Of a DNA stretch of 42,179 nt, positions 2,842 to 42,179 are shown piece by piece (the stretch's first letter is position 1; each line of letters opens with the position of its first letter). The notes under the pieces are model-generated. The model did no database searches. It worked only from the letters and a program-made list of their open reading frames with translations, and was not told where the DNA came from. The translations under genes were made by a program, and so were the position numbers. This DNA comes from Gemmatimonadales bacterium (lineage in GTDB: Bacteria; Gemmatimonadota; Gemmatimonadetes; Gemmatimonadales; GWC2-71-9): contig JAHBVU010000026.1 of the NCBI GenBank assembly GCA_019637315.1, positions 1 through 42,179 on the forward strand. The letters are read 5' to 3'.

Positions 2842-3735
2842 TTAACCCCGCACGTGCCGATTGAAGAACGCCACGGTCCGGTCCCACGCCAGCTTCGCGG
2901 CGGCGGGGTCATACCGCGGCGTGGTATCGTTGTTGAAGCCGTGCTGGGTGCCCGGATAGAGATACCGCTGGTAGTCGACTTTCGCCGCCTTGAGCGCCTC
3001 CTCGAACGCCGGCCAGCTCGCATTGATTCGAGGGTCCTGCTCCGCCGACTGAATCAGCAGCGGACTGCGAATCTTCGGCACGTCCTCGACGTTGGGCGAC
3101 GAACCGTAGAACGCCACGCCCGCGGCCAGCTCCGAACCGAGCCGGGTGGCGAGATAGTTCACCATGCCGCCGCCATAGCAGAACCCGACCGCACCAACCC
3201 GACCGGTCGACTCCGGGCGGGCCTTCAACACCCCGACGGCAGCCACGAAATCCTCCCGCGTCTTGGCCTGATCGAGCTGCGGAAAGAGCTCGCGGGCTTT
3301 GTCTTCATCGCCCGGGTAGCCACCGAGCGGGAAGAGCGCATCCGGAGCAAACGCGAGAAAGCCGTCGACCGCGAGCCGCCGCGTGATGTCTTCGATGTGC
3401 GGGTTGAGGCCGCGATTTTCGTGGATCACGAGGATGGCGGGATGCCTGGCTGTCGCACCCGTCGGGGCCACGAGGTACCCCCGCGCCCGGCCGTACCCAT
3501 TCGGCGAGTCGTACTCGAGATACTCGGCGCTGATCCTGGTATCGGCCGGAGCGATAACCTGCGCCTCGACGAACTTCGGGCTGAGCTGCTCGAGCAGCAT
3601 GGCCGCCGTAACCCCGCCCACGGCGAACTTGGCGGCCCGGTCGAGAAAGGCGCGGCGGTCGATGGTGCCATGAACGTAGGCGTCGAACAGGATCAGCAAC
3701 TCCTGATCGAAGTCGTGTGAGGTCTTCCGGGTCAT
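2842..3735 (-). CDS. Dienelactone hydrolase family protein, exported
   Basis: The protein has 297 residues from the ATG at 3735; an in-frame ATG at 3771 adds 12 unlikely residues. It is an alpha/beta hydrolase of the dienelactone hydrolase family. The nucleophile is Cys186 in GFCYGGG, the acid is Asp234 in AEQDPR and the base is His265 in GTQHGF; Glu106 in HENRG matches the conserved Glu of the family. The N-terminus has DRRAFLDRAAKFAVGGVTAAML (twin Arg at 27-28 before a hydrophobic run), which looks like a Tat signal set in about 25 extra residues, so secretion is likely. Known members cleave cyclic or activated esters; the substrate here is unknown. It lies 54 bases downstream of the toxin gene on the same strand but is not obviously part of that module. 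Confidence 0.88.
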   Translation of the reverse strand: MTRKTSHDFDQELLILFDAYVHGTIDRRAFLDRAAKFAVGGVTAAMLLEQLSPKFVEAQVIAPADTRISAEYLEYDSPNGYGRARGYLVAPTGATARHPAILVIHENRGLNPHIEDITRRLAVDGFLAFAPDALFPLGGYPGDEDKARELFPQLDQAKTREDFVAAVGVLKARPESTGRVGAVGFCYGGGMVNYLATRLGSELAAGVAFYGSSPNVEDVPKIRSPLLIQSAEQDPRINASWPAFEEALKAAKVDYQRYLYPGTQHGFNNDTTPRYDPAAAKLAWDRTVAFFNRHVRG

Positions 3736-3789
3736 GCGGCGCTCCGGCGAGGGGGTCCTCCAATCTATCACGCGGGCGGTGTTCCGGCC

Positions 3790-4248
3790 CTAGGCGAGGC
3801 GCGGATCGACCCGAAACGGCTGGGCCGGTCCGATGCTCACCTTCCGGTAGTCGCGATGTTCGGGGTTGAGCACGTAGTTGAACTCCAACCCCACGACGGC
3901 ACTGGGAACCCGCAACACCGCTGACGCAGCCGAATCCAACCACCGGTCGCCGATGGCGGCGAGGCTGACGGGTGCAGGATAGTTGGTCCACTCTGGCGGC
4001 AACGATCGAGGGTCGAGCTTCGTGACGAGCTGATCCGGAAAGCGAACTTCGAAGAGCGTGTACGCGGCCAGCAGCCGAGGCGACTCGAGGTGGACGAGGA
4101 TTTCCAGCGTGGCCAGCGCCACTGAGCTCGAGGTGTAGACCGCGCGCCGGCCGACGCTGGTCCAGCGCCCTCCAGCCCGGCGAGCCCCTTCGCCATCAAG
4201 GGCGCTGGCGGCGTACTTACTTTTGACGATCCGCCAGGCGGACGGCAC
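3790..4248 (-). CDS. RES-domain toxin of a RES-Xre toxin-antitoxin module
   Basis: This 152-residue protein has the size and motifs of RES toxins, which deplete NAD+ in characterised members. The signature Arg28 lies in GGRWTSVG, Glu49 in ATLEILVHL, and Ser116 in RVPSAVV; these are the Arg-Glu-Ser residues that name the family. The start is a GTG at 4248 directly abutting the antitoxin stop (TGA at 4249-4251), and no ribosome site precedes it, so translation is probably coupled to the antitoxin. The C-terminal NPEH motif (YVLNPEHRDY) is also typical. The gene order, antitoxin first, is the usual one for this class. All signature residues are present, so I expect an active toxin. Confidence 0.93.
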   Translation of the reverse strand: MPSAWRIVKSKYAASALDGEGARRAGGRWTSVGRRAVYTSSSVALATLEILVHLESPRLLAAYTLFEVRFPDQLVTKLDPRSLPPEWTNYPAPVSLAAIGDRWLDSAASAVLRVPSAVVGLEFNYVLNPEHRDYRKVSIGPAQPFRVDPRLA

Positions 4249-4755
4249 TCAGGAGGGCACTCCGTGCTCGAGCCGGTCGATCAGGCGCTCGACCTCGAGC
4301 GCACCCGGACCCGTGCGGCTCATCTCCAGGGGCGATCGGTCGCCCAGGCCCCTGATCGGCTTCCGGAACCAGGCAACGGCCTGCCGGTCATCGCCTTCGA
4401 ACAGTTCGATGGCTTTGCCGAACAAGCGGGTGAGTCGAAGCACCCGATCCGATTCATCCGGCTGCAGCCGTCCAGCCTCCTTGCGCCGGTGAATCGTCCG
4501 TTCCGAGAGCATCAGCGCGTCGGTCAGGGCCGAGCGCTGCACGTCCATCAGGCTGTGCAGCTTCTCGAGGTATCGGTAGGGAATGCCCTGCTCCACCCGA
4601 TCATGGAGGGACGCCGTATCGGCAGCCTCCATACCGAGTAGGGCCACGTAGGCATTGGGTCCGCGCGAGCCCTCGACCGCCTCGAGGTAGGCCTGCACAT
4701 CCGGGCGCCGCTTGGGGATCCGCTTTCGGGACGGACCCGGTGCTGATTTTGCCAT
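4249..4755 (-). CDS. Xre/MbcA/ParS-type antitoxin
   Basis: The antitoxin has 168 residues from the ATG at 4755. The N-terminus is very basic (KRIPKRR). The middle holds a helix-turn-helix-like region (LTDALMLSERTIHRRKEAG) and the C-terminus has the toxin-binding Xre-MbcA-ParS domain: AVAWFRKPIRGLGDRSPLEMSRTGPGALEVERLIDRLEHG in pieces matches the known pattern of W-x3-P-x2-GL-x2-P-x2-L followed by a terminal helix. Known antitoxins of this class neutralise the RES toxin by blocking its active site and repress their own promoter. The start codon lies in a CATATG-centred palindrome (see 4750-4782), consistent with autoregulation, and no Shine-Dalgarno sequence precedes it. Confidence 0.92.
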   Translation of the reverse strand: MAKSAPGPSRKRIPKRRPDVQAYLEAVEGSRGPNAYVALLGMEAADTASLHDRVEQGIPYRYLEKLHSLMDVQRSALTDALMLSERTIHRRKEAGRLQPDESDRVLRLTRLFGKAIELFEGDDRQAVAWFRKPIRGLGDRSPLEMSRTGPGALEVERLIDRLEHGVPS

Positions 4756-4782
4756 ATGGCTGAAAGCTACCGCCACATGGCA
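4750..4782. promoter_or_regulatory. Probable operator of the RES-Xre module
   Basis: TGCCATATGGC (4750-4760) contains the perfect 10-bp palindrome GCCATATGGC, and GCCACATGGCA (4772-4782) is its inverted copy with one mismatch. The two centres are 22 bp apart, about two helical turns, so two antitoxin dimers could bind the same face. The first site covers the antitoxin start codon at 4755. A partial third copy, CAATGGCA, is at 4789-4796. The role is inferred from position; binding is not shown by the sequence alone. Confidence 0.55.
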
Positions 4783-4953
4783 GGCCGTCAATGGCAACCC
4801 CGACAGCCAGAGTCTGCGCCCCCGCAGCTACGCCGCCAGAAGCGAAATATCCGCGGCGGTCGTTGCTTGCCCCGACCCCGACGCCACCCTACCTTGCCCG
4901 ATGCACCACCCGAGGGGCGAGTGGTGCGACTTCGTCATCGGAGGCATCGCGCA

Positions 4954-7900
4954 GTGACTCAATCGAAGGGACCATCTCGCATCACCAAGCTGATGGCCGC
5001 CAATCGAAGCGAGATTGCGGTGCGCGTCTTCCGCGCCGGCACCGAGCTCGGCCTCCGCACCGTTGCGATCTACGCTCACGACGACCGCTTCTGCATCCAT
5101 CGCTACAAGGCCGACGAGGCGTATGAGGTCGGCATCGGCAAGGGGCCCGTGGCCGCGTACCTCGATATCGAGGGCATCATTGCGATTGCCAAGGCGCGGG
5201 GCGTCGACGCGATTCATCCCGGTTACGGCTTCCTCTCGGAAAACCCGGAGTTCGCGCGCGCCTGCATCGAGGCCGGACTGATTTTCGTCGGCCCCCGCCC
5301 CGAGCTGCTCGAGATGATGGGCGACAAGACCGCCGCCCGCTCCCTGGCGCAGCGCATCGGGGTGCCGACCCTGCCAGGTACGGAAGAGCCGATCACCGAT
5401 CGCGCCCAGGCGCTCGCGGTCGCCCAGTCGATCGGGTTTCCGCTGATCATCAAGGCGGCGTTCGGCGGCGGCGGGCGCGGGATGCGGGTGGTCCGCGCCG
5501 AGTCGGAACTCGAGAACCTGCTCGACGAGGCGCAGGCCGAGGCGGAACGGGCCTTCGGGAACCAGGCCATCTTCCTCGAAAAGTACATCGAACGCGCCAA
5601 GCACCTCGAGGTCCAGATCCTCGGCGATCAGCACGGCAACGTGATTCATCTCCACGAGCGCGACTGCTCGGTGCAGCGCCGCCATCAGAAGGTGATCGAG
5701 GTGGCGCCATCGGTCGGATTGCCGCAGGCGGTGGTCGACCAGCTGTGCGAAGCCGCCACCCGGATGGCGCGGGAAATCCGCTACGACAACGCGGGCACGG
5801 TCGAGTTCATCTACGATCTCGACCGGCACGAGTGGTTCTTCATCGAGATGAATCCGCGGATCCAGGTCGAGCACACGGTATCGGAAGTGATTACCGGGCT
5901 CGATCTCGTCCGCGCCCAGATTCTGATTGCCGAAGGGCATGAGCTGCACTCGGAACGGGTCGGGATGCCCAGGCAGGAGGAGGTGCCGCGGAACGGCTAC
6001 GCCATTCAGTGCCGCATTACCACCGAGGATCCGGAGAATCAGTTTGTGCCGGATTACGGGCGGATCATGGCGTACCGGTCGCCGGGCGGTTTCGGGGTCC
6101 GGCTCGACGGCGGAATGGGCTTTGCCGGCGCGGTCATCACGCCGTACTACGACTCGCTGCTGGTCAAGTGCATCGCGAGCGGGCAGACCTACGACAACGC
6201 GCTGCACCGGGCGCGCCGCTGCCTGGCGGAGTTCCGGATTCGCGGCGTCAAGACGAACATCCCGTTCCTCGAGAACGTGATTGCGCACCCCAAGTTCCGG
6301 AGCGGTCAGGCCACCACGACCCTGATCGACACCACGCCCAAGCTCGTCAAGTTCAAGCCTCGGCGCGATCGGGCGACCAAGCTGCTCAATTTCCTGGCGG
6401 GGGTCATCGTCAACGGCAATCCGCACGCCAAGGGCTATCGGCCGAGCGGTCCTCTGCCCCAGCCGCGGCCGCTGCCGTACAGCCCGAGTGCGGAGCCGCC
6501 CGCCGGTACGCGGCAGCGCCTGCTCGCGCTCGGCGCGAAGGGATTTGCGGAGTGGGTCAGGGCGCAGGATCGGCTGCTGATTACCGACACAACCTGGCGC
6601 GATGCGCACCAGTCGCTCATGGCCACCCGGGTCCGCGGCTACGACATGCTGGCCACCGCGGCGGCCGTGGCGCGTCGGACGCCGCAGCTATTCTCGCTGG
6701 AGATGTGGGGTGGGGCCACCTTCGACACCGCCATGCGGTTTCTGAGCGAGGATCCCTGGGAGCGACTCCGCCAGCTGCGCGCTGCGGTGCCCAACATCTG
6801 CTTCCAGATGCTCTTCCGGGGCGCCAATGCGGTCGGCTACACCAATTATCCCGACAATGTCGTGGCCGGCTTCGTTCGCCATGCGGCCGGCCAGGGCATG
6901 GACATCTTCCGGGTCTTCGACTCGCTCAACTACCTGCCCAGCCTCCGGGTCGCGATGGAGGCGGTTCAGGACACCCACGCCGTCTGCGAAGCCGCCATCT
7001 GCTACACCGGCGACATTCTCGACGAGCGGCGCGACAAGTTCTCGCTCCAATACTATGTCCGGCTGGCCAAGGAGCTGGAGCGGATGGGCGCCCACATGCT
7101 CGCCATCAAGGACATGGCGGGGCTCTGCCGTCCCTTCGCGGCCAAGCGGCTGGTCGAGACGCTCCGAAACGAGATCGGACTGCCGATCCATTTCCATACC
7201 CACGACACCAGCGGCATCGCCTCCGCCAGCGTGCTCCAGGCTGCCCAAGCGGGCGTGGACGCGGTCGACCTCGCGCTGGCCTCGATGAGCGGCAGCACCT
7301 CGCAGCCCAACCTCAATTCCGTAGTAGCCGCGCTCCAGCACACTCCGCGGGACACCGGACTCGATCTCGACACCCTGAACGAGTTCTCCGACTATTGGGA
7401 AACGGTGCGTACCTACTATGCGCCGTTCGACTCCGCGCCGAAGAGCGGATCGGCGGAGGTCTACCTGCACGAGATGCCGGGCGGGCAGTATACCAACCTC
7501 AAGGAGCAGGCCGCCGCGATGGGTGTTGGCCATCGCTGGCCCGAGATTGCCCGCACCTACGCCGAGGTCAATCAGCTCTTCGGTGACATCGTGAAAGTCA
7601 CCCCGTCGTCGAAGGTCGTCGGCGACATGGCGCTCTTCCTGTTCAGCAAGAGCATTCGCCCGGTCGACGTCGTCAATCTCGATCCTGGCGTCACGCCGTT
7701 CCCCGAGAGCGTCATCGACATGCTGATGGGCGGCCTGGGGTGGCCCGATGGCGGCTGGCCCGAGGACGTTTCGCTCGCCGTGCTTGGTCCGGAGCGCCAT
7801 GCCGTGGCGCGGGCGCGCTACGCTGCGGCCATGAGCGGCCTGCCGAATGCCGAGACGGCCGCCGAGCTCGACCTCGCGGTGACCCGTGCCGAGCTCAAGG

Positions 7901-18819: not shown

Positions 18820-21800
18820 ATGCCTTTGTCTTCCCTCCGCGCCCTCGCGCTGCCGGTCGCCGCCTTCGCGAGTCTGGCCGGGTCGGCCGCCGCTCAGAGT
18901 CCGGCGCAGAACGACAGCGCTGCCAAAGCCGCCACCGCGGCCAAGGGGTTGCCGTTGATACCGACCCGGACCCTGTCATTTACGACGACGGAAGGATCCT
19001 GGCTGTCGATCGATATCGACCCCACCGGGCGGACCCTGATTTTCGACCTGCTCGGTGATCTCTACACCATGCCAATCACCGGCGGCACGGCCACCCGGAT
19101 CACCAGCGGCCTTCCCTACGACATGCAGGCGCGCTACTCGCCCGACGGCAAGTCGATCGTCTTCGTGAGCGACCGGGACGGCGCCGAGAATATCTGGATT
19201 GCCGATGCCGACGGCGCGAACCCGCGCGCCCTGACCACGACCGAGCGGGAGAACTACGTCTCGCCGGCCTGGACGCCCGACGGCCAGTACATCGTCGCGA
19301 CCAAAGGCAGCCAGCTCTGGATCTGGCACAAGGACGGCGGCTCCGGCGTGCAGATGACCGGCCAGGCACGACCCGGCGGCCCGGCTCCCTCACCCCAGAA
19401 CTTCTACCTCGGGGCCGCCTTCGGGGCCGACTCGACCTCGCTCTGGGTCAACGTGCGCGGGGTGCCGACCCCATCGCTCGCCGCGGGCACGCGCCACGCC
19501 CACGGCGAACACGACGGGCGCAGCACCGCCCGCGAAATCGGCCCGATTCAGATTGCCGAACTCGAGCGGGGCACTGGACAGCTGCGGATCCGGACCCACG
19601 AGCACGAAGGCGCCTTTCGCCCGGTCCCGAGCCCCGACGGCAAGTGGCTCGTCTATGCGACGCGCTTCGACAGCCGCGCAGCGCTCAAGCTGCTCGATCT
19701 GACCACCGGCGAGGACCGCTGGCTGGTGATGGATGTGCAGCGCGATGATCACCAGGGCGGCGGCAGCCGCGATCGGGATCTCTATCCCGGCTCGGCCTTC
19801 ACCCCGGACTCGCGCGCCCTCATCACCAGCTACGGCGGCGAGATTCGTCGAATCGAGATTCCCTCGGGCCGAGTCAGCACGATTCCGTTCAGCGCGGCGG
19901 TCGATCAGCCGCTTGGTCCGTTGGTCAAGTTCGATTACCCGATCAACGACTCGGTCCTGACGGTCACCCAGATCCGCGGCGCCCGGCCGTCGCCCGATGG
20001 CAAGCGGCTCGCCTTTACCGCCCTGGGCCGGCTCTGGATTGCCGACCTGCCGGCAAGCGCGGGTGGACCCGGCAACCAGAACCGCACCCCGGCCGTGATT
20101 CGGAACGCCCGCCGCCTGACCGATGCCGACGTTGTCGAGCATGGCCCGGTCTGGTCACCGGACGGCCGCTACCTGGCCTATGTGACCTGGGACGACTCGC
20201 TTGGCGGGCAGATTCAGCGGGTCCGCACCGACATCCGCGCGGCGCCCGAGGCTTTGACCCGCGTGCCCGCATTCTACGACAAGCTGGCGTACACCAGGGA
20301 CGGGACGCGCCTGCTTGCCATCCGCGGCTCCAAGCAGCATCGGATGCGCACCCTCGAGGACTTCGGCAATCACAGCCCGGCGGCCGAGATCGAGTACGTC
20401 TGGCTGCCCGCCACTGGGGGCACCCCGACCCGGATCCGCTGGGCAGGCGGCGGGGTTACTCCGACCCGCGGAGTGCCGCACATCGGGCCCGACACCTCGC
20501 GAGTCTACCTCTGGACCGGCAGCGACGGGCTGGTCTCGATGCGGCTCGATGGCAGCGACCTGCGCACCCTGCTCAAGGTGACCGGGCCCTCGAGTCCGAC
20601 CTTCCAGGGCACCATGACGCCGGCGGTCCCCGAGGAGGTGGTGCTCTCGCCTGACGGCCGCCGGGCGCTCGTCACGGTGCGCACCAACGTCTACATGATC
20701 ACGGTGCCGCCGGTCGGCGGCGAGGTGCCGCCAACGGTGTCGGTGGTGCTGCCCTCGACGGTGCCGCTCTGGCGGCTGACCCGGGTCGGCGGCGACTTTG
20801 CCGGCTGGAGCAGCGACGGCAGCCAGGCACACTACTCGATCGGTCGGAGCTTCTTCCGGTATGACCTGGCCCTCGGCGATTCGCTGGTCCGCGACTCCGT
20901 CAGCCGGGCCCGACCCCGACCGGGACAGGCGCGCCCCGACTCGGCTCGGGCCGATTCATCCCAGCGGAGCGGGCAGGTCAGCTTTGCGTACGAAGCGGGC
21001 CGAGTCGACGTCGAGATCGTGGTGCCGAAAGACCGGCCGCGAGGTACGGTGGTGCTCCGCGGCGCGCGCATCATCACCATGAAGGGCAATGAGGTCATCT
21101 CCTCGGGCGACCTCGTCGTCACGAACAACCGGATCAGTGCGGTAGGACCGACCGGCAGCATCACGGTTCCTGCAGGCGCCCGGGTCATCGACGTTGCCGG
21201 TAAGACGATCCTGCCCGGCTATGTCGACATCCATGCGCACAACTGGATGGCCTGGGGCGTTCACCGGACCCAGATTGCGCAGTTCCTGCCGCAACTGGCG
21301 TACGGCATCACGACCCAGCGCGACCCGCAGACCATGGAAACCGACATCCTGACCTACTCGGACCGGATGGAAACGGGCGAGCTGCTCGGCCCGCGCCTCT
21401 TCTCGACCGGCCCAGGCGTCTTTTCGTGGGACAACATCAAGAGCCTCGCCGATGCGCGCGACGTGCTGCGCCGCTACGCCGACCACTACGGTACCGGAAC
21501 GATCAAGCAGTACATGGCCGGCGACCGGAAGGTGCGCCAGTGGGTCATCATGGCCGCCCGCGAGCTCGGCCTCACGCCGACGACCGAGGGCGGGGTCAAC
21601 TTCACCATGAACCTAACGCTGATGCAGGACGGCTATCCCGGCCTGGAGCACAACCTGCCGATCAGCCCGTTCTACCGCGACGTCGTCGAACTGCACCGCA
21701 CCAGCGGCCTCTTCTACACCCCGACGCTGATCGTCAGCTACGGTGGCCCGATCGGTCGGAACTACTATCTGACCCGAACTAACATCGATACGGTATCACG

Positions 21801-22272
21801 GCTCCGTCGCTTCACGCCCCACGACGAGCTCGACAAGTGGAAGAGCACCAGCTTCCAGCGCGACGATCAGCAGGTCTTCCGGCTCCATGCGCAGCAGCTC
21901 GCCAAGATGCAGGCAGCCGGCGGCAAGCTCGGCCTCGGCTCGCACGGCGAAATCCAGGGCCTCGGTGCGCACTGGGAGCTCTGGATGATGGCCAGCGGCG
22001 GCATCAGCAATCATGAGGCGCTGCGGATTGCCACCATCACCAGCGCGGACGGGGTCGGGCTCGCGAAGGACCTGGGCTCCCTCGAGGTCGGCAAGCTGGC
22101 CGACCTCCAGGTGCTCGACCTGAACCCGCTCGAGCAGCTCGAGCACACCACGTCGGTCCGGTATGTCATGAAGAACGGCCGGCTCTATGAGGCTGAGACG
22201 CTGAACGAAATCTGGCCGAGGACCCGACCGCTTCCGACCCAATGGTGGTGGCGCCTCGAACCGCCGGCGTGA
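18820..22272 (+). CDS. Exported fusion of TolB-type propeller and amidohydrolase
   Basis: This 1150-residue protein starts with a signal peptide (MPLSSLRALALPVAAFASLAGSAAAQ). Residues about 40-690 hold repeated propeller blades of the PD40/TolB type, with motifs such as YSPDGKSIVFVSDRDGAENIWIAD, SPDGKWLVYATRF and SPDGRYLAYVTWD. An Arg/Pro/Ser-rich linker (about 690-715) leads to a metal-dependent amidohydrolase domain (about 745-1140): the HAH metal pair is His805/His807 in YVDIHAHNW, then PGLEHNLP and LGLGSHGEIQGLGAHWELW, ending with IATITSADGVGL and LGSLEVGKLADLQVLD. The architecture is known in several phyla as exported amidohydrolases. The substrate is unknown; peptides or cyclic amides are plausible. 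A strong hairpin follows the stop. Confidence 0.93.
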   Translation: MPLSSLRALALPVAAFASLAGSAAAQSPAQNDSAAKAATAAKGLPLIPTRTLSFTTTEGSWLSIDIDPTGRTLIFDLLGDLYTMPITGGTATRITSGLPYDMQARYSPDGKSIVFVSDRDGAENIWIADADGANPRALTTTERENYVSPAWTPDGQYIVATKGSQLWIWHKDGGSGVQMTGQARPGGPAPSPQNFYLGAAFGADSTSLWVNVRGVPTPSLAAGTRHAHGEHDGRSTAREIGPIQIAELERGTGQLRIRTHEHEGAFRPVPSPDGKWLVYATRFDSRAALKLLDLTTGEDRWLVMDVQRDDHQGGGSRDRDLYPGSAFTPDSRALITSYGGEIRRIEIPSGRVSTIPFSAAVDQPLGPLVKFDYPINDSVLTVTQIRGARPSPDGKRLAFTALGRLWIADLPASAGGPGNQNRTPAVIRNARRLTDADVVEHGPVWSPDGRYLAYVTWDDSLGGQIQRVRTDIRAAPEALTRVPAFYDKLAYTRDGTRLLAIRGSKQHRMRTLEDFGNHSPAAEIEYVWLPATGGTPTRIRWAGGGVTPTRGVPHIGPDTSRVYLWTGSDGLVSMRLDGSDLRTLLKVTGPSSPTFQGTMTPAVPEEVVLSPDGRRALVTVRTNVYMITVPPVGGEVPPTVSVVLPSTVPLWRLTRVGGDFAGWSSDGSQAHYSIGRSFFRYDLALGDSLVRDSVSRARPRPGQARPDSARADSSQRSGQVSFAYEAGRVDVEIVVPKDRPRGTVVLRGARIITMKGNEVISSGDLVVTNNRISAVGPTGSITVPAGARVIDVAGKTILPGYVDIHAHNWMAWGVHRTQIAQFLPQLAYGITTQRDPQTMETDILTYSDRMETGELLGPRLFSTGPGVFSWDNIKSLADARDVLRRYADHYGTGTIKQYMAGDRKVRQWVIMAARELGLTPTTEGGVNFTMNLTLMQDGYPGLEHNLPISPFYRDVVELHRTSGLFYTPTLIVSYGGPIGRNYYLTRTNIDTVSRLRRFTPHDELDKWKSTSFQRDDQQVFRLHAQQLAKMQAAGGKLGLGSHGEIQGLGAHWELWMMASGGISNHEALRIATITSADGVGLAKDLGSLEVGKLADLQVLDLNPLEQLEHTTSVRYVMKNGRLYEAETLNEIWPRTRPLPTQWWWRLEPPA

Positions 22273-27460: not shown

Positions 27461-28819
27461 CTACTGCCGGAGCAGGATGTTGTGGGCGTAGCCGGCATCC
27501 ATGCGCAGCTGGACCGGCTTGCCATCCTTCCGATCGAACGTCAGCAGTGAGCCCCCCGCGCTGAAGCTGTCTCCGCCCCGATAGCTGAGCGCTTGCCACG
27601 GCCCGTTGGGCGCCCGCCGGATCCGGACCTGGCCAGCGCTGTCGGCAATCCACACTGTCATCGGCCGCCCCCGGCCCGGGCCGGTGTAGGTGCCGGCGTA
27701 CTCGGCCGCATTTCCCGCAAAGGTTTGGGTCCGGTCCGGCGCCGGGCCGAGGACGATGTTGGCAATCGCCGCGGCCATGGCGTCGGGCCGCGCCGGGCCC
27801 TGTGAATTGAGCAGGACGACCACCGTCAGATCCTGCTCCGGCCAATACGCAGCAAACGAAGCGAAGCCGTTGATGTCGCCCCCGTGGGAAATCGCCGGAC
27901 GGCCCGCCAGGTCAACCAGCGCAAACCCCAATCCGTAACGCAACTTGGTGCCGTCGTTGAGTGCAGCCGGCCCGACCAGATCCCGGTACGAAGTCCGGTT
28001 GAGGATCCGATCGCTCTTGTGAAGCGCCTGGTTCCACGCGGCCAGGTCGCCTGCGGTCGAGCAGAGCGAGCCTGCTGCGTAAGGCCACCGGTGATTGACG
28101 AAGCCCTTGATGACGAGGCCGGTCGAATCCGTGTCATAGCCGTGCGCGTGACCCTTCCGAATCGTCCGCTCGCTGCAGTAGTACGACCGAGTCATGCCGG
28201 CCGGCGCAAACAAGCGCTTGGCGACGTAGTCGGCGTACGACATCGCACTCACCTTTTCGATCAGCAAGCCCGCCAGGAAGTAGCCGGAGTTGTTGTAGGT
28301 CTGCTGCTCGCCGGGGGGGAAATCGAACGGCTTGGTCTGCACGACCCGAACCAGCGAGTCGCGCGGCACGTTGCTCAGCGAAATGGTTCGAAACTCGGGG
28401 ATCTCTGTAATGCCCTTGATTCCGGAGGTGTGGTCGAGCAGGCGACGAACCGTGATCCGGTGCCCCTGGGTCTGATAGTCCGGAAGGTACCGGGTAACCT
28501 CGGCGTCGAGGTCGATCTTACCCTCCTGGACCAGCTGCATGATGGCGACCGAGGTGAACTGCTTCGTCACCGAGCCAATCTCGTAGCTCGCATTCGACGG
28601 CGTAGCCACGTCGTGCTCGAGGTCCGCATAGCCGTAGCCCTTGAGGACCAGGGTGTCCCTGCCGCGGATCACCGCAACCGACCCCCCGGCCAGCCGCCCC
28701 GCTTTGATCGGTGCATTGACGAGCGAGTCGATCGCCGCCAGCATCGTCGTACGGTTGGGCTGTTGCCCGGATCCGGCCACCAGCAGAAATGCCATCGATC
28801 CCATCAGCCAGGGCTTCAT
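27461..28819 (-). CDS. Exported serine hydrolase, beta-lactamase/PBP fold
   Basis: From the ATG at 28819 the protein has 452 residues and begins MKPWLMGSMAFLLVAGSGQ, a signal peptide. A GTG two codons upstream (28825) sits five bases after AGAGGA and may be the real start. Class C beta-lactamase-like motifs are all present: Ser83-Val-Thr-Lys86 (SVTK), Tyr175-Asn-Asn177 (YNN) and His312-Gly-Gly (HGG). Other matching segments are ITVRRLLDHTSGI and LFAPAGMTRS. After about 355 residues comes an extra C-terminal beta-rich domain (EYAGTYTGPG onward) seen in many esterase-like members. The family covers esterases, D-aminopeptidases and beta-lactamases; the substrate cannot be told. It is divergent from the ketosynthase operon. 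Confidence 0.92.
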   Translation of the reverse strand: MKPWLMGSMAFLLVAGSGQQPNRTTMLAAIDSLVNAPIKAGRLAGGSVAVIRGRDTLVLKGYGYADLEHDVATPSNASYEIGSVTKQFTSVAIMQLVQEGKIDLDAEVTRYLPDYQTQGHRITVRRLLDHTSGIKGITEIPEFRTISLSNVPRDSLVRVVQTKPFDFPPGEQQTYNNSGYFLAGLLIEKVSAMSYADYVAKRLFAPAGMTRSYYCSERTIRKGHAHGYDTDSTGLVIKGFVNHRWPYAAGSLCSTAGDLAAWNQALHKSDRILNRTSYRDLVGPAALNDGTKLRYGLGFALVDLAGRPAISHGGDINGFASFAAYWPEQDLTVVVLLNSQGPARPDAMAAAIANIVLGPAPDRTQTFAGNAAEYAGTYTGPGRGRPMTVWIADSAGQVRIRRAPNGPWQALSYRGGDSFSAGGSLLTFDRKDGKPVQLRMDAGYAHNILLRQ

Positions 28820-28861
28820 CGTCACGCTATTCCTCTCAGTCGCATTGGGAAAATGGGCAGC

Positions 28862-28881
28862 TGCCGGGATCGGACCCGGCA
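28862..28881. repeat. Inverted repeat in the divergent promoter region
   Basis: TGCCGGG (28862-28868) and CCCGGCA (28875-28881) are perfect inverted repeats around six bases, in the 155-base space between the serine hydrolase and ketosynthase genes. It could be an operator shared by both directions, but palindromes this short are frequent in GC-rich DNA. Confidence 0.3.
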
Positions 28882-28974
28882 CCACGTTGTACGGTCAGGG
28901 ACCGCCCGGGGTTTCGGGGCAATCCGGCCCGGCCCGCTTCCCTCCGCGCGCCCCCTTTTCTATCCTCTATCCCT

Positions 28975-30528
28975 ATGACTCGAATTGGCGTCTTCGGATG
29001 GGGTCTCGTTGCCCCGAAATCACCAGACATTGACACCTTCGCTGCCAATCTGGCAAACGGAACGAGCTGGCTGGAGCCGTTCAACGGCTTCGGACCCGAT
29101 TCCTTCCTGGTTGGCCGCCCGTCCTTCGACATCGAACGGTATCGGAGCTGGGTCAGCGAGCGGTTTCCGCCCCGCCGTTTCGCCCAACTGATCGAGAAGA
29201 TGGACGAGCCGACCCTGTTCGCCCTCGGCTCCTTTATCCAGTCCCTCGCCCAGAATCCCGGAATCGAACAGGACCTTCAGAGTCTGGGAAGCGAGGCCCA
29301 TGTCTATGTCGCGCCTGGAATCGGCGCCATCGGCACTTACCACGATGGAGCCCTGCAACTCTACCATGCGCAGCGGCGCTGGGATCGCTACTGGGCCGAT
29401 CCGGCCCGCAACCCCGCCCTCGCCGCGCACCTCGACGGCGCCACCGACGCCGAGGCGCCTCCTTCGCCCGAGGGTGCCTCGATCGACGAGCGCGACGAGC
29501 GGGAGAGCGCCTGGTGGCACTACTGGGCCGCCAAGGCGCCGGGGCTGGCTGCGTACCTGGAGACCCTGCGGAGCATCGAAGGCCTCAATGTCGAAGGCGA
29601 CATCGAGGCCGGCAAGATCAAGATGATGCGGGAGAAGAGCCGACGCACGACCGCACTCGAAGCGGAATCCGGCGCGCCGCTGCCGCCCTGGAAATCCGTC
29701 TCGGCCAACCTGATCTGGAACATCCACAACACGCCGGCTGCGCAAATCTCGATGCTCGGGCGAATCACCGGCCTGGCGTTTGCCCCAGTCGGCGCCTGCT
29801 CGACCTTCGGGCTGGGCCTCAAGCTGGCCATCGATGCGATCCGCCGTGGCGAGGCCAAAGCCGTCGTGGTCGGCGCCACCGATCCGTCGCCGCACCCGCT
29901 GGTGGTCGGCGCCTTCTATCAGGGACGGGTCATCTCCGCCGATGGCGGGGTCTCCAAGCCGCTGCACGGACTCCGGGGCACCCACGTCGCGGGCGGCGCC
30001 GTGGTCTGGATCGTCGGCGACTACGACTACTTCACGGCCAAAGGGTACCGGGCACTCGGCATGGAACCGGTCAGCGTCGGCGTGAGTTCAGACGCCCATC
30101 ACATCATCACGCCGAGTACCGAGGGGCCCCTCGCAGCGATCCGACAGGCACTCGACCAGGCCGACGCCCAACCCGAGGAGGTCGGCACCTGGGACCTCCA
30201 CGCCACCGCCACACCGGGAGACTTCCTCGAGGTCGACAACCTGCGGCAGATCATGCCCTCGTCCGTGCTCGTGACGGCTAGAAAAGGCACCTTCGGCCAC
30301 GGTATGGGCGGCGGCGGCGGCTGGGAACTCACGGCCCAGTATCTTGGGGTCGAGCGCGGCAGCCTGTTCCCGACTCCGCTCGCTGCGTCGGAGCTGCACC
30401 CCTCGATCCGGGCGGTGCATCCGCTCTTCGTTTTCAACGAGGCCGTCCCGGCGCCGACCGGGCTCGCCGGCAAGCTCTCGATGGGAATCGGCGGGATCAA
30501 CGCCTGCGTGCTGTCCCGACCGTGGTAG
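28975..30528 (+). CDS. Beta-ketoacyl synthase (FabF-like), orphan
   Basis: The ATG at 28975 begins the natural first strand (MTRIGVFGWGLVAP); the open frame upstream reads into the promoter. The product has 517 residues, about 100 more than FabF. Catalytic residues are present: Cys275 in GACSTF, His409 in DLHATATPGD, Lys437 in ARKGTFGHG and His442 in the same motif; GIGGINACVL is the usual end motif. The extra length is mostly before the Cys: residues about 130-245 hold an acidic, Trp-rich insertion not in FabF. There is no carrier protein, malonyl transferase or reductase nearby, so fatty acid synthesis proper is unlikely. It leads an apparent operon with the dipeptidase-like and amidohydrolase genes. 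Confidence 0.9.
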   Translation: MTRIGVFGWGLVAPKSPDIDTFAANLANGTSWLEPFNGFGPDSFLVGRPSFDIERYRSWVSERFPPRRFAQLIEKMDEPTLFALGSFIQSLAQNPGIEQDLQSLGSEAHVYVAPGIGAIGTYHDGALQLYHAQRRWDRYWADPARNPALAAHLDGATDAEAPPSPEGASIDERDERESAWWHYWAAKAPGLAAYLETLRSIEGLNVEGDIEAGKIKMMREKSRRTTALEAESGAPLPPWKSVSANLIWNIHNTPAAQISMLGRITGLAFAPVGACSTFGLGLKLAIDAIRRGEAKAVVVGATDPSPHPLVVGAFYQGRVISADGGVSKPLHGLRGTHVAGGAVVWIVGDYDYFTAKGYRALGMEPVSVGVSSDAHHIITPSTEGPLAAIRQALDQADAQPEEVGTWDLHATATPGDFLEVDNLRQIMPSSVLVTARKGTFGHGMGGGGGWELTAQYLGVERGSLFPTPLAASELHPSIRAVHPLFVFNEAVPAPTGLAGKLSMGIGGINACVLSRPW

Positions 30529-40861: not shown

Positions 40862-40912
40862 TTGACCATTTCTAAATAACCGTTTAGATAATAACTATAT
40901 CGTTGTTTAGAA
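40862..40912. promoter_or_regulatory. TetR/SDR promoter and operator region
   Basis: TTCTAAATAAC (40870-40880) and GTTGTTTAGAA (40902-40912) are inverted repeats with one mismatch. Inside lies a tighter palindrome, TCTAAA-N6-TTTAGA (40871-40888), of the size TetR dimers bind. For the SDR gene, TTGACC (40862-40867) with TAGATA (40885-40890; 17-bp spacer) or GATAAT (40887-40892; 19-bp) could be the -35 and -10. The operator overlaps this promoter, which fits repression. The AT content is far above the surrounding DNA. Confidence 0.7.
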
Positions 40913-40931
40913 TCATAACGGGAGGGGTGCC

Positions 40932-41861
40932 ATGCCGATACGGAAGCGGGCGCGAGCACTGGTCGCAGTCGTCATGGGCGGCAGCCGAGGCGCTGGACGC
41001 GGGATTGCGCTCGCCTTGGGTGACGCGGGAGCCACGGTTTATGTCGCCGGCCGGACCACCCGGGGTGGCCCCGCTCCGCGGGATGGCGCACCCGGAACCG
41101 TCGACGACACGGCCGACGAGGTCACCGCCCGGGGGGGACGCGGCATTGCCGTCCCGACGGATGCAACCGACGCGGCGCAGGTCGCCCGGCTATTCGAGCG
41201 GGTCGCCGCGGAACAGGATGGGCTCGACGTCCTTGCCAACGCCGTGTGGGGCGCCGCCGACGGAACGGCGTCGGCCGCCGAAGCGATGGCTGCCTGGGGC
41301 ACCCCGTTCTGGGAACTGCCAGCCGCCCTGTGGCGCCACCAGATGGACGGCGGCCCGACGGCGTACTTCCTCGCCAGCCGCGAGGCGCTCCGCCTCATGG
41401 TTCCCCGGCGTCGCGGCCTGATCGTGGGCGTCACGGATGGACTGATGGAAGGCACGCCGAAGTCGGTCCTCAGCGGCGAGCGTTTCGGCGACTACGCCGG
41501 AAACCTGCTCTGGGATCTCTCGCACGTGACGATCAACCGGTTGATGGCCAATCTCGCGACCGACGCGAAAGCGCACCGGGTTGCGGTCGTTACGCTAATG
41601 CCCGGCTTCATGCAGACCGAACGCGTTGCACGGACCATGACCACGGAGGCGATCCGGCGTCGTTTCCGCTATGACCTGAGCGAGTCGACCGAGTACCTCG
41701 GCCGCGCAGTTGCCGCGCTGGCACGGGACCGCAGGGTGCTGAGCAAGTCGGGGCGGATCCATTTCGTCGCCGACCTGGCGCGTGAGTATGGCTTTACCGA
41801 TGTCGACGGGGTACAGGTGCCGCGCTTCAACCCATTCGGAGCAACGCCTGCGGAGGAGTGA
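40932..41861 (+). CDS. SDR-family oxidoreductase-like protein, catalytic Tyr-Lys apparently replaced
   Basis: The ATG at 40932 has GGAGGGG five bases upstream; the product is 309 residues. The NAD(P)-binding half is normal: VMGGSRGAGRGIALALG at 14-30, VYVAGRTTRG, and NAVWG at 103-107 as the NNAG-like motif. In most relatives that I know, the active-site segment reads like FYDLAKxxVNRLA, with YxxxK. Here it is LLWDLSHVTINRLM, giving Trp194 and His198 in place of Tyr and Lys. The remaining motif TLMPGFMQTE (like PGxxxTE) is kept. It may bind cofactor without standard catalysis, or use other residues such as Tyr188. It is divergent from a TetR gene, so probably induced by a ligand. Confidence 0.88.
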   Translation: MPIRKRARALVAVVMGGSRGAGRGIALALGDAGATVYVAGRTTRGGPAPRDGAPGTVDDTADEVTARGGRGIAVPTDATDAAQVARLFERVAAEQDGLDVLANAVWGAADGTASAAEAMAAWGTPFWELPAALWRHQMDGGPTAYFLASREALRLMVPRRRGLIVGVTDGLMEGTPKSVLSGERFGDYAGNLLWDLSHVTINRLMANLATDAKAHRVAVVTLMPGFMQTERVARTMTTEAIRRRFRYDLSESTEYLGRAVAALARDRRVLSKSGRIHFVADLAREYGFTDVDGVQVPRFNPFGATPAEE

Positions 41862-42024
41862 GTCGCTCGGGACCTGAGCCCAAAGCCCTTACGGACGGGA
41901 CGACGGGATCAGGATCTCGAACGAATGGCGGGTCTCCGGGGCCACCGGCCACAGATTTGCCACGCGGCACGATGCACGATGAATGAGGGATCTGTAACTG
42001 GGGACGTGACAACGACTTCTGAAG

Positions 42025-42096
42025 AGCCAGCGGTCGGGATTGAACCGACGACCGCTCGATTACGAATCGAGTGCTCTACCACTGAGCTACGCTGGC
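42025..42096 (-). tRNA. tRNA-Thr (anticodon CGT)
   Basis: Read on the minus strand, the acceptor GCCAGCG pairs with CGCTGGC, followed by the discriminator T. The D arm has GCTC/GAGC, the anticodon stem CTCGA/TCGAG flanks the loop TTCGTAA with anticodon CGT (Thr), and the T arm holds GGTTCAATCC. Length is 72 bases. CCA is not encoded (CTTC follows). All four stems pair well. Confidence 0.97.
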
Positions 42097-42137
42097 GTTA
42101 TGTCCTGAACGCCACTCTTGCCGGCGCCGTAAACCCA

Positions 42138-42179
42138 TGCCCTGACTCGGATTCGAACCGAGACGCCTTTCGGCACTAC
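42138..42179 (-). tRNA. tRNA-Leu, 3' part only (window edge)
   Basis: The minus strand shows a 3' half: a variable arm with GCC-GAAA-GGC, then the T arm CTCGG-TTCGAAT-CCGAG and the acceptor strand TCAGGGC with discriminator A (42138). The variable arm is long, as in type II tRNAs, and its length fits leucine better than serine. The anticodon lies outside the window, so the amino acid is inferred from the arm. CCA is not encoded (TGG follows). Confidence 0.8.

Follow-up and report, generated by a model that had tools for sequence, protein, structure and literature searches.

The window, by which we mean the whole 42,179-nt stretch of DNA analysed here (contig JAHBVU010000026.1 of a Gemmatimonadales bacterium), contains a gene for a short-chain dehydrogenase/reductase (SDR) in which the replacement of the YxxxK motif by WxxxH was confirmed as genuine. 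A very large enzyme superfamily is recognised by its YxxxK motif, and proteins that lack the motif are commonly taken to be non-functional. The protein belongs to a clade marked by His at the Lys position, which is a real, conserved and new variant of the NapW-like SDRs; for NapW itself an Asp-dependent mechanism was already known. Our preferred reading, to which we assign a probability of about one half, is that the window SDR, controlled by TetR, acts in detoxification as a NapW-type reductase of C=N or hemiaminal compounds, with NADPH as cofactor and with Asp-driven chemistry that does not depend on Tyr.

A 309-aa ORF contains the segment GDYAGNLLWDLSHVTINRLMANLA, in which alignment puts W194 at the place of the SDR Tyr and H198 at that of the Lys (Table 1). 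The phmmer alignments were ungapped in this region and placed WDLSH opposite YDLVK of NapW (7bsx) and YGVGK of human DHRS1 (2qq5). The cofactor-binding half was normal (GGSRGAG, D77 and N103), and the Pfam match to adh_short and an AF2 model both indicated a Rossmann fold with a TGxxxGxG-type motif. The best NCBIfam model was PRK08303 (NF006159), with a score of 216.2 bits that falls under the curated cut-off of 364. These alignments bore out the first statement of an earlier sequence-only reading of this DNA, that WxxxH stands at the place of YxxxK next to a normal Rossmann half. The same reading had counted two changed residues; Tyr and Lys are indeed changed, but it missed that the Ser and Asn positions are changed as well, that some members carry Y..H, and the link to NapW. 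By alignment, the classical Asn-Ser-Tyr-Lys tetrad is replaced by G141, D169, W194 and H198, where we take G141 to be the tetrad-Asn position and D169 the catalytic-Ser position. No other Tyr/Lys pair at the usual spacing was seen in the aligned window SDR. Y145, which is clade-specific and is His in relatives, is a candidate stand-in acid. Y188 (GDYAGN), just ahead of the motif, was considered as a replacement Tyr and rejected as a compensation because Tyr is also found there in 58 of 68 non-clade sequences and is absent from one of the seven clade sequences.

Table 1. Features of the SDR–TetR locus, in coordinates of the window.
Feature	Position	Strand	Basis or context
Divergent TetR-family regulator, 216 aa	40186..40836	-	TetR_C_13 2.8e-7, TetR_N 2.4e-5
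TTGACC, -35-like box	40862..40867	+	TTGAC invariant in 4 aligned regions
Palindrome CTAAATAACCGTTTAG, 16 bp, probable TetR operator	40872..40887		Between TTGACC box and A+T-rich -10-like stretch
Second, weaker operator-like box CTATATCGTTGTTTAG	40895..40910		23 bp downstream of first; partly conserved in relatives
NapW-like SDR, [WY]xxxH clade, 309 aa	40932..41861	+	adh_short 3.3e-19; PRK08303 216 bits; NapW sequence and fold match
G141	41352..41354	+	Aligned to Asn of N-x-x-G helix (5thq, 4weo alignments)
T168-D169-G170	41433..41441	+	D169 stands opposite NapW Asp165, and opposite a Ser in 4weo and DHRS1
W194-D-L-S-H198 at YxxxK place	41511..41525	+	Alignments; start of helix 192-213 in AF2 model

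Relatives were gathered as the best 80 of 407 from a genome scan together with 30 further loci from genome searches. With the window these gave 111 aligned rows, in which the motif was Y..K in 103, W..H in six (five distinct proteins) and Y..H in two. L087, identical to L001 in coordinates and score, was counted as L001 and left out of the trees. Seven distinct His-type proteins were present among the 111 rows: that of the window, L001 from a Gemmatimonadaceae MAG (G150), the Tyr-type proteins of G037 and G104 from genomes of the window's order, and L002, L003 and L004 from Acidobacteria, Planctomycetota and Chloroflexi MAGs, respectively. The genomes of these seven are assigned to four phyla; misbinning of L002 and L004 is possible, as their phylum is taken from MAG contigs of just 3.5 and 9.7 kb. 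Because the Tyr position is Trp in five members and Tyr in two, while His is found in all seven, the invariant mark of the clade is the His and not the Trp.

Merging of identical rows reduced the first tree alignment from 114 to 103 rows. A 75-row tree was then built with the motif columns removed and with 27 near-identical YxxxK rows and L120 omitted; the 51-row alignment A1 omitted L072, which has a stop inside its stretch. The seven His-type rows fell on one side of a branch of the 75-row tree (support 100/99), and did so in 100% of 200 bootstrap trees. Whether WxxxH is conserved as a clade was the check proposed in the sequence-only reading, and the window SDR proved to be one of seven distinct members of a single clade instead of a sole copy. 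The Lys column required one parsimony step and the Tyr column two. All 68 other rows keep both residues, and the Tyr-type G037 and G104 are nested among the Trp rows; parsimony therefore gives a single K-to-H and a single Y-to-W change at the base of the clade, followed by reversion to Tyr in G037 and G104. The sister group of the seven His-type rows consisted of the 30 YxxxK rows that carry Asp at the D169 position, NapW included (100/99 for each group and 94/98 for their join), so the clade and the NapW group have the Asp in common by descent.

The His-type clade is rare. Of the 288 genomes searched in the window's order, four had it at E ≤ 1e-70, counting that of the window itself; in genus g33 the figure was 3 of 17. 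The phyla of L002, L003 and L004 were sampled with 347, 343 and 350 genomes, respectively, and at E ≤ 1e-65 these samples returned the seed genomes only, plus one YxxxK protein. Spread via plasmids or viruses was considered and rejected, as no plasmid matched the SDR at 1e-30 and no SDR relative was found in the viral_contigs scan.

Pairwise dN/dS by the Nei-Gojobori method was 0.10–0.35 across the 21 clade pairs, rough values in that dS was about 1–2.7 and hence near saturation. Invariant clade positions were concentrated around the active site (21 of 29 positions in the active-site ring, a set chosen from knowledge of SDRs, vs 87 of 251 elsewhere; p = 1e-4). Three positions, D104, H145 and E166, are each occupied by these residues in all 30 Asp-bearing YxxxK rows, and have become Ala (7/7), Tyr (7/7) and Gly (6/7) in the clade. 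We read this exchange as apparently coordinated, consistent with removal of a charged network that accompanied the Lys and not with decay. Y145, M223, R154, H277 and F278 are both clade-specific and invariant. The Asn position is Gly or Ala in 66 of the 68 non-clade rows, so that Asn, and Ser in the Asp-bearing group, appear to have been exchanged already in relatives; the His clade would then have completed the set by adding Tyr and Lys. The single-origin clade, these dN/dS values and the conservation of the active-site ring above the rest of the protein support the suggestion of the sequence-only reading that this is probably a functional, non-classical SDR.

The regulator encoded divergently from the SDR gene has a TetR_N domain that scored just above the model's cut-off (24.5 vs 24 bits). 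A scan with the operator-like pattern, which was itself derived from this region and its relatives, gave two matches at ≤1 mismatch vs 0.01 expected in shuffled sequence. In an alignment of four of the five TetR-linked clade regions (window, L001, L002 and G104, with L003 left out), TTGAC, TAAA...TTTAGA, TAACT and AGnAT were invariant. The palindrome of L003 differs (AAATGAATGAACATTCATTT) and is nearer to the palindrome beside the YxxxK locus L068. A sigma-70 consensus scan picked TAGATA (40885) and TAGAAT (ending at 40913) instead of the conserved TTGAC, and the position of the -10 is unsure. With the second operator-like box, two TetR dimers may bind. A homologous TetR gene was divergently adjacent at four of the six other distinct clade loci (L001, L002, L003 and G104), and no homologue was found in 12 kb around the G037 gene or on the 9.7-kb L004 contig. 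The claim of TetR control is supported by the operator-like sequence, which is conserved, but the regulator is not universal in the clade. A TetR homologue was also found beside 3 of 103 YxxxK loci (L010, L068 and L086; flanks up to 1.5–3 kb), which suggests that the TetR–SDR pairing may predate the His change. As homologues at 54–74% identity share the motif change and these intergenic blocks are invariant, we conclude that WxxxH did not arise by chance.

NapW was the closest solved match to the window SDR by sequence (6.1e-40, phmmer) and also by fold. Using the AF2 model (pLDDT 89.7), Foldseek gave 3.9e-26 and VIA-align gave a Z of 36.8 with an rmsd of 2.5 over 285 aligned residues at 38% identity; the corresponding Z values were 31.3 for DHRS1 and about 29 for FabG-type entries. 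Among the other entries in the fold listings, 8w0n and 8w0o (IRED / GDH-105) resemble an SDR-based imine reductase and were given no weight in our reading. Positions in the 7bsx chain equal the numbering of Wen et al. plus 20, a conversion that correctly places R176 and N177 on Arg and Asn, and on this basis the NapW/window residue pairs are D165/D169, Y181/W194 and K185/H198. The window SDR is thus NapW-like in sequence and whole-length fold and departs from it in having WxxxH where YxxxK would be retained. We file it as a sister variant and not as a NapW orthologue, since all 68 non-clade rows have Tyr and Lys. The Asp equivalent to NapW D165 is found in 7/7 clade members and in 30 of the 68 non-clade rows; the remaining 38 lack it, and in the wider family this column is often Phe or Ala.

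NapW is described as carrying out the NADPH-dependent reduction of the naphthyridinomycin hemiaminal warhead, substrates of this type being hemiaminal/iminium warheads of tetrahydroisoquinoline antibiotics (Wen et al. 2021, PMC8648761). Of several Ala substitutions made there at polar residues close to the nicotinamide, D165A alone is described as causing a clear loss of activity; the authors proposed that Asp165 protonates the leaving hydroxyl and that the resulting iminium accepts hydride, with deuterium transfer consistent with this proposal. The same text describes seven named homologues from several phyla, plus two of Streptomyces lividans, most of which reduced such compounds and two much less so; the homologues examined span 34–75% identity (PMC8648761). 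A Paenibacillus homologue was found active (PMC8648761); the Asp-less rows of our set include L064 and L066 from Paenibacillus/Brevibacillus, and L066 may or may not be that homologue. NapW-like SDRs also appear among screened C=N reductases, where those described were mostly weak on model imines (PMC11876095). As Asp-less homologues are possibly active, the family containing NapW may have more than one catalytic solution.

In the reaction that we propose for the window SDR, the target would be a toxic iminium- or hemiaminal-bearing (C=N) compound that is detoxified by NADPH-dependent reduction. D169, at the classical Ser place, would protonate the leaving hydroxyl of the hemiaminal, and the iminium so formed would take hydride from NADPH. 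The product would then need no proton from Tyr, and the Tyr/Lys pair could be lost. W194 (or Tyr) may provide an aromatic wall near the nicotinamide, while H198 may take over a ribose or structural contact of Lys. The divergent TetR would repress the SDR gene by binding the palindrome within the promoter that the two genes share, and would presumably let go once it senses the toxin. Hydride addition to a preformed iminium should not require a Tyr proton, and the Tyr of NapW itself may be dispensable. The return of Tyr without Lys in G037 and G104 suggests that the Tyr position is now a plain aromatic slot. A counterpoint to this Tyr/Lys-free reading is that Tyr and Lys are kept in 68/68 non-clade rows, all 30 Asp-bearing rows included, which indicates that the pair does matter outside the clade; the 38 Asp-less rows likewise show that the family as a whole does not depend on Asp. 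That a clade with all four tetrad positions replaced still reduces its substrate with NADPH, a single Asp serving as the acid and His standing in for Lys, is a tentative proposal that we put at somewhat below even odds.

Several observations concern the surroundings of the clade genes and of the window. At L003 the WxxxH gene (2998–3870) is followed by a YxxxK member of the family (4099–5070), and the TetR gene is divergent. On the 75-row tree this second gene grouped with the Asp-bearing YxxxK rows and not beside the His clade, so the pair is not a recent tandem duplication; it perhaps represents two reductases that complement each other, or an active enzyme with an inactive partner. The region between rimM and trmD is usually part of a tight ribosomal gene cluster. 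In the three g33 genomes (L121, L122 and L123 in G150, G037 and G104) the SDR gene lies between genes that we take to be rimM and trmD from reading the L001 proteins, with a TetR gene in two and none at G037. Close orthologues (65–69%) of the cyclophilin gene of the window locus were found in three of five congeners, and none of four other window genes tested lay beside the cyclophilin orthologue in congener stretches of 5.5–8.5 kb. A tRNA-Thr (cgt) gene at 42024–42096 (-) lies 162 bases beyond the SDR gene, and within 42024–42179 the last bases of the window resemble, by eye, a further tRNA truncated where the window stops. Elsewhere in the window, the only Pfam matches of a 579-aa ORF at 28789–30525 (+) were to the later part of the beta-ketoacyl synthase N-terminal domain (profile 142–228), followed by the C-terminal domain, and a 1150-aa protein at 18820–22269 (+) combines an amidohydrolase domain with PD40 repeats of the WD40-like propeller kind.

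Other explanations for the missing tetrad were weighed against the proposed reductase. The patchy distribution of the clade in the order and in g33 would accord with a gene that is being lost, its motif altered by relaxed drift or by faulty assembly. We regard this as very improbable and largely refuted, because separate genomes share the change at appreciable divergence, their frames are open and under the selection described above, and the clade remained single after removal of the motif columns. An orphan or pseudogene was ruled out by the homologues and by that same selection. It is also improbable, to a lesser degree, that the protein is a catalytically dead SDR under TetR control whose sole function is to bind NAD(P)H, perhaps together with a ligand, as a redox/ligand sensor or structural partner. 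Non-canonical residues at all four tetrad positions beside an intact Rossmann half favour such a role, as does the L003 pair if the WxxxH protein is the inactive partner of an active subunit. However, constraint falls on the active-site ring and not on the cofactor half alone, the NapW acid is kept in every member, and no second family member was found in six of the seven clade genomes at thresholds of 1e-3 (weak SDR matches only), 1e-40 and 1e-30. Purifying selection together with the conserved pocket makes a dead sensor the less likely of the two roles offered by the sequence-only reading, a cofactor sensor or an enzyme with another mechanism, and the retention of NapW Asp165 as D169 fits the latter better.

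The protein could also be an active enzyme whose chemistry differs from that proposed, the invariant H198 (with D169, Y145 or H277) forming a new acid–base group that acts on a carbonyl or other substrate; we judge this unlikely. The constancy of His while the Tyr position alternates between Trp and Tyr speaks for it, and the five clade-specific invariant residues point to a remodelled pocket. Set against this, the Lys position in SDRs normally faces the cofactor ribose and not the substrate, and the open-access literature listings searched named no SDR with His at the Lys position and no natural YxxxH or WxxxH SDR. We therefore retain the Asp-driven reductase as our preferred reading. Should the clade indeed still work as a reductase with all four positions replaced, it would be evidence that an SDR fold engaged in C=N reduction of the NapW type can do without the Tyr/Lys pair. 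A YxxxK-less clade beside an Asp-dependent relative makes the need for Tyr and Lys in C=N-reducing SDRs directly testable. Imine reductases could be developed from these natural proteins, and the clade is a candidate family for resistance to DNA-alkylating antibiotics.

Comparison with known systems places the clade next to the NapW, homW and SfmO1-type SDRs (7bsx, 7btm), with which it shares the T-D-G segment with Asp at D165, the Rossmann half and a C-terminal EYGFTD.DG motif. NapW differs in having Tyr181 and Lys185 where the clade has Trp or Tyr and His, and the D104, H145 and E166 positions hold Ala, Tyr and Gly in the clade; the Gemmatimonadota members also have a longer loop ahead of the motif. 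On the nicotinamide side, E113, R176, N177 and W213 of NapW are replaced by Ala/Asn/Ser, Ala/Asn/Ser/Gly, Gly and Phe, respectively, so the substrate is probably unlike that of NapW. The NF006159/PRK08303 subfamily model is matched by all 51 A1 rows and is the top NCBIfam match of the window SDR, whose score nevertheless lies well below its cut-off. DHRS1, which ranks second to NapW among solved relatives both in sequence and in VIA-align Z, likewise has Gly at the tetrad-Asn position but retains the other three residues, Ser, Tyr and Lys. A precedent, by analogy only, is the eugenol synthase of basil, an atypical SDR of the PIP family: as described (PMC1991597), this SDR relative works without the catalytic Tyr, through loss of a leaving group to give a quinone methide that then receives hydride, but it belongs to another SDR family and keeps an essential Lys132, the Lys132Ala protein being inactive.
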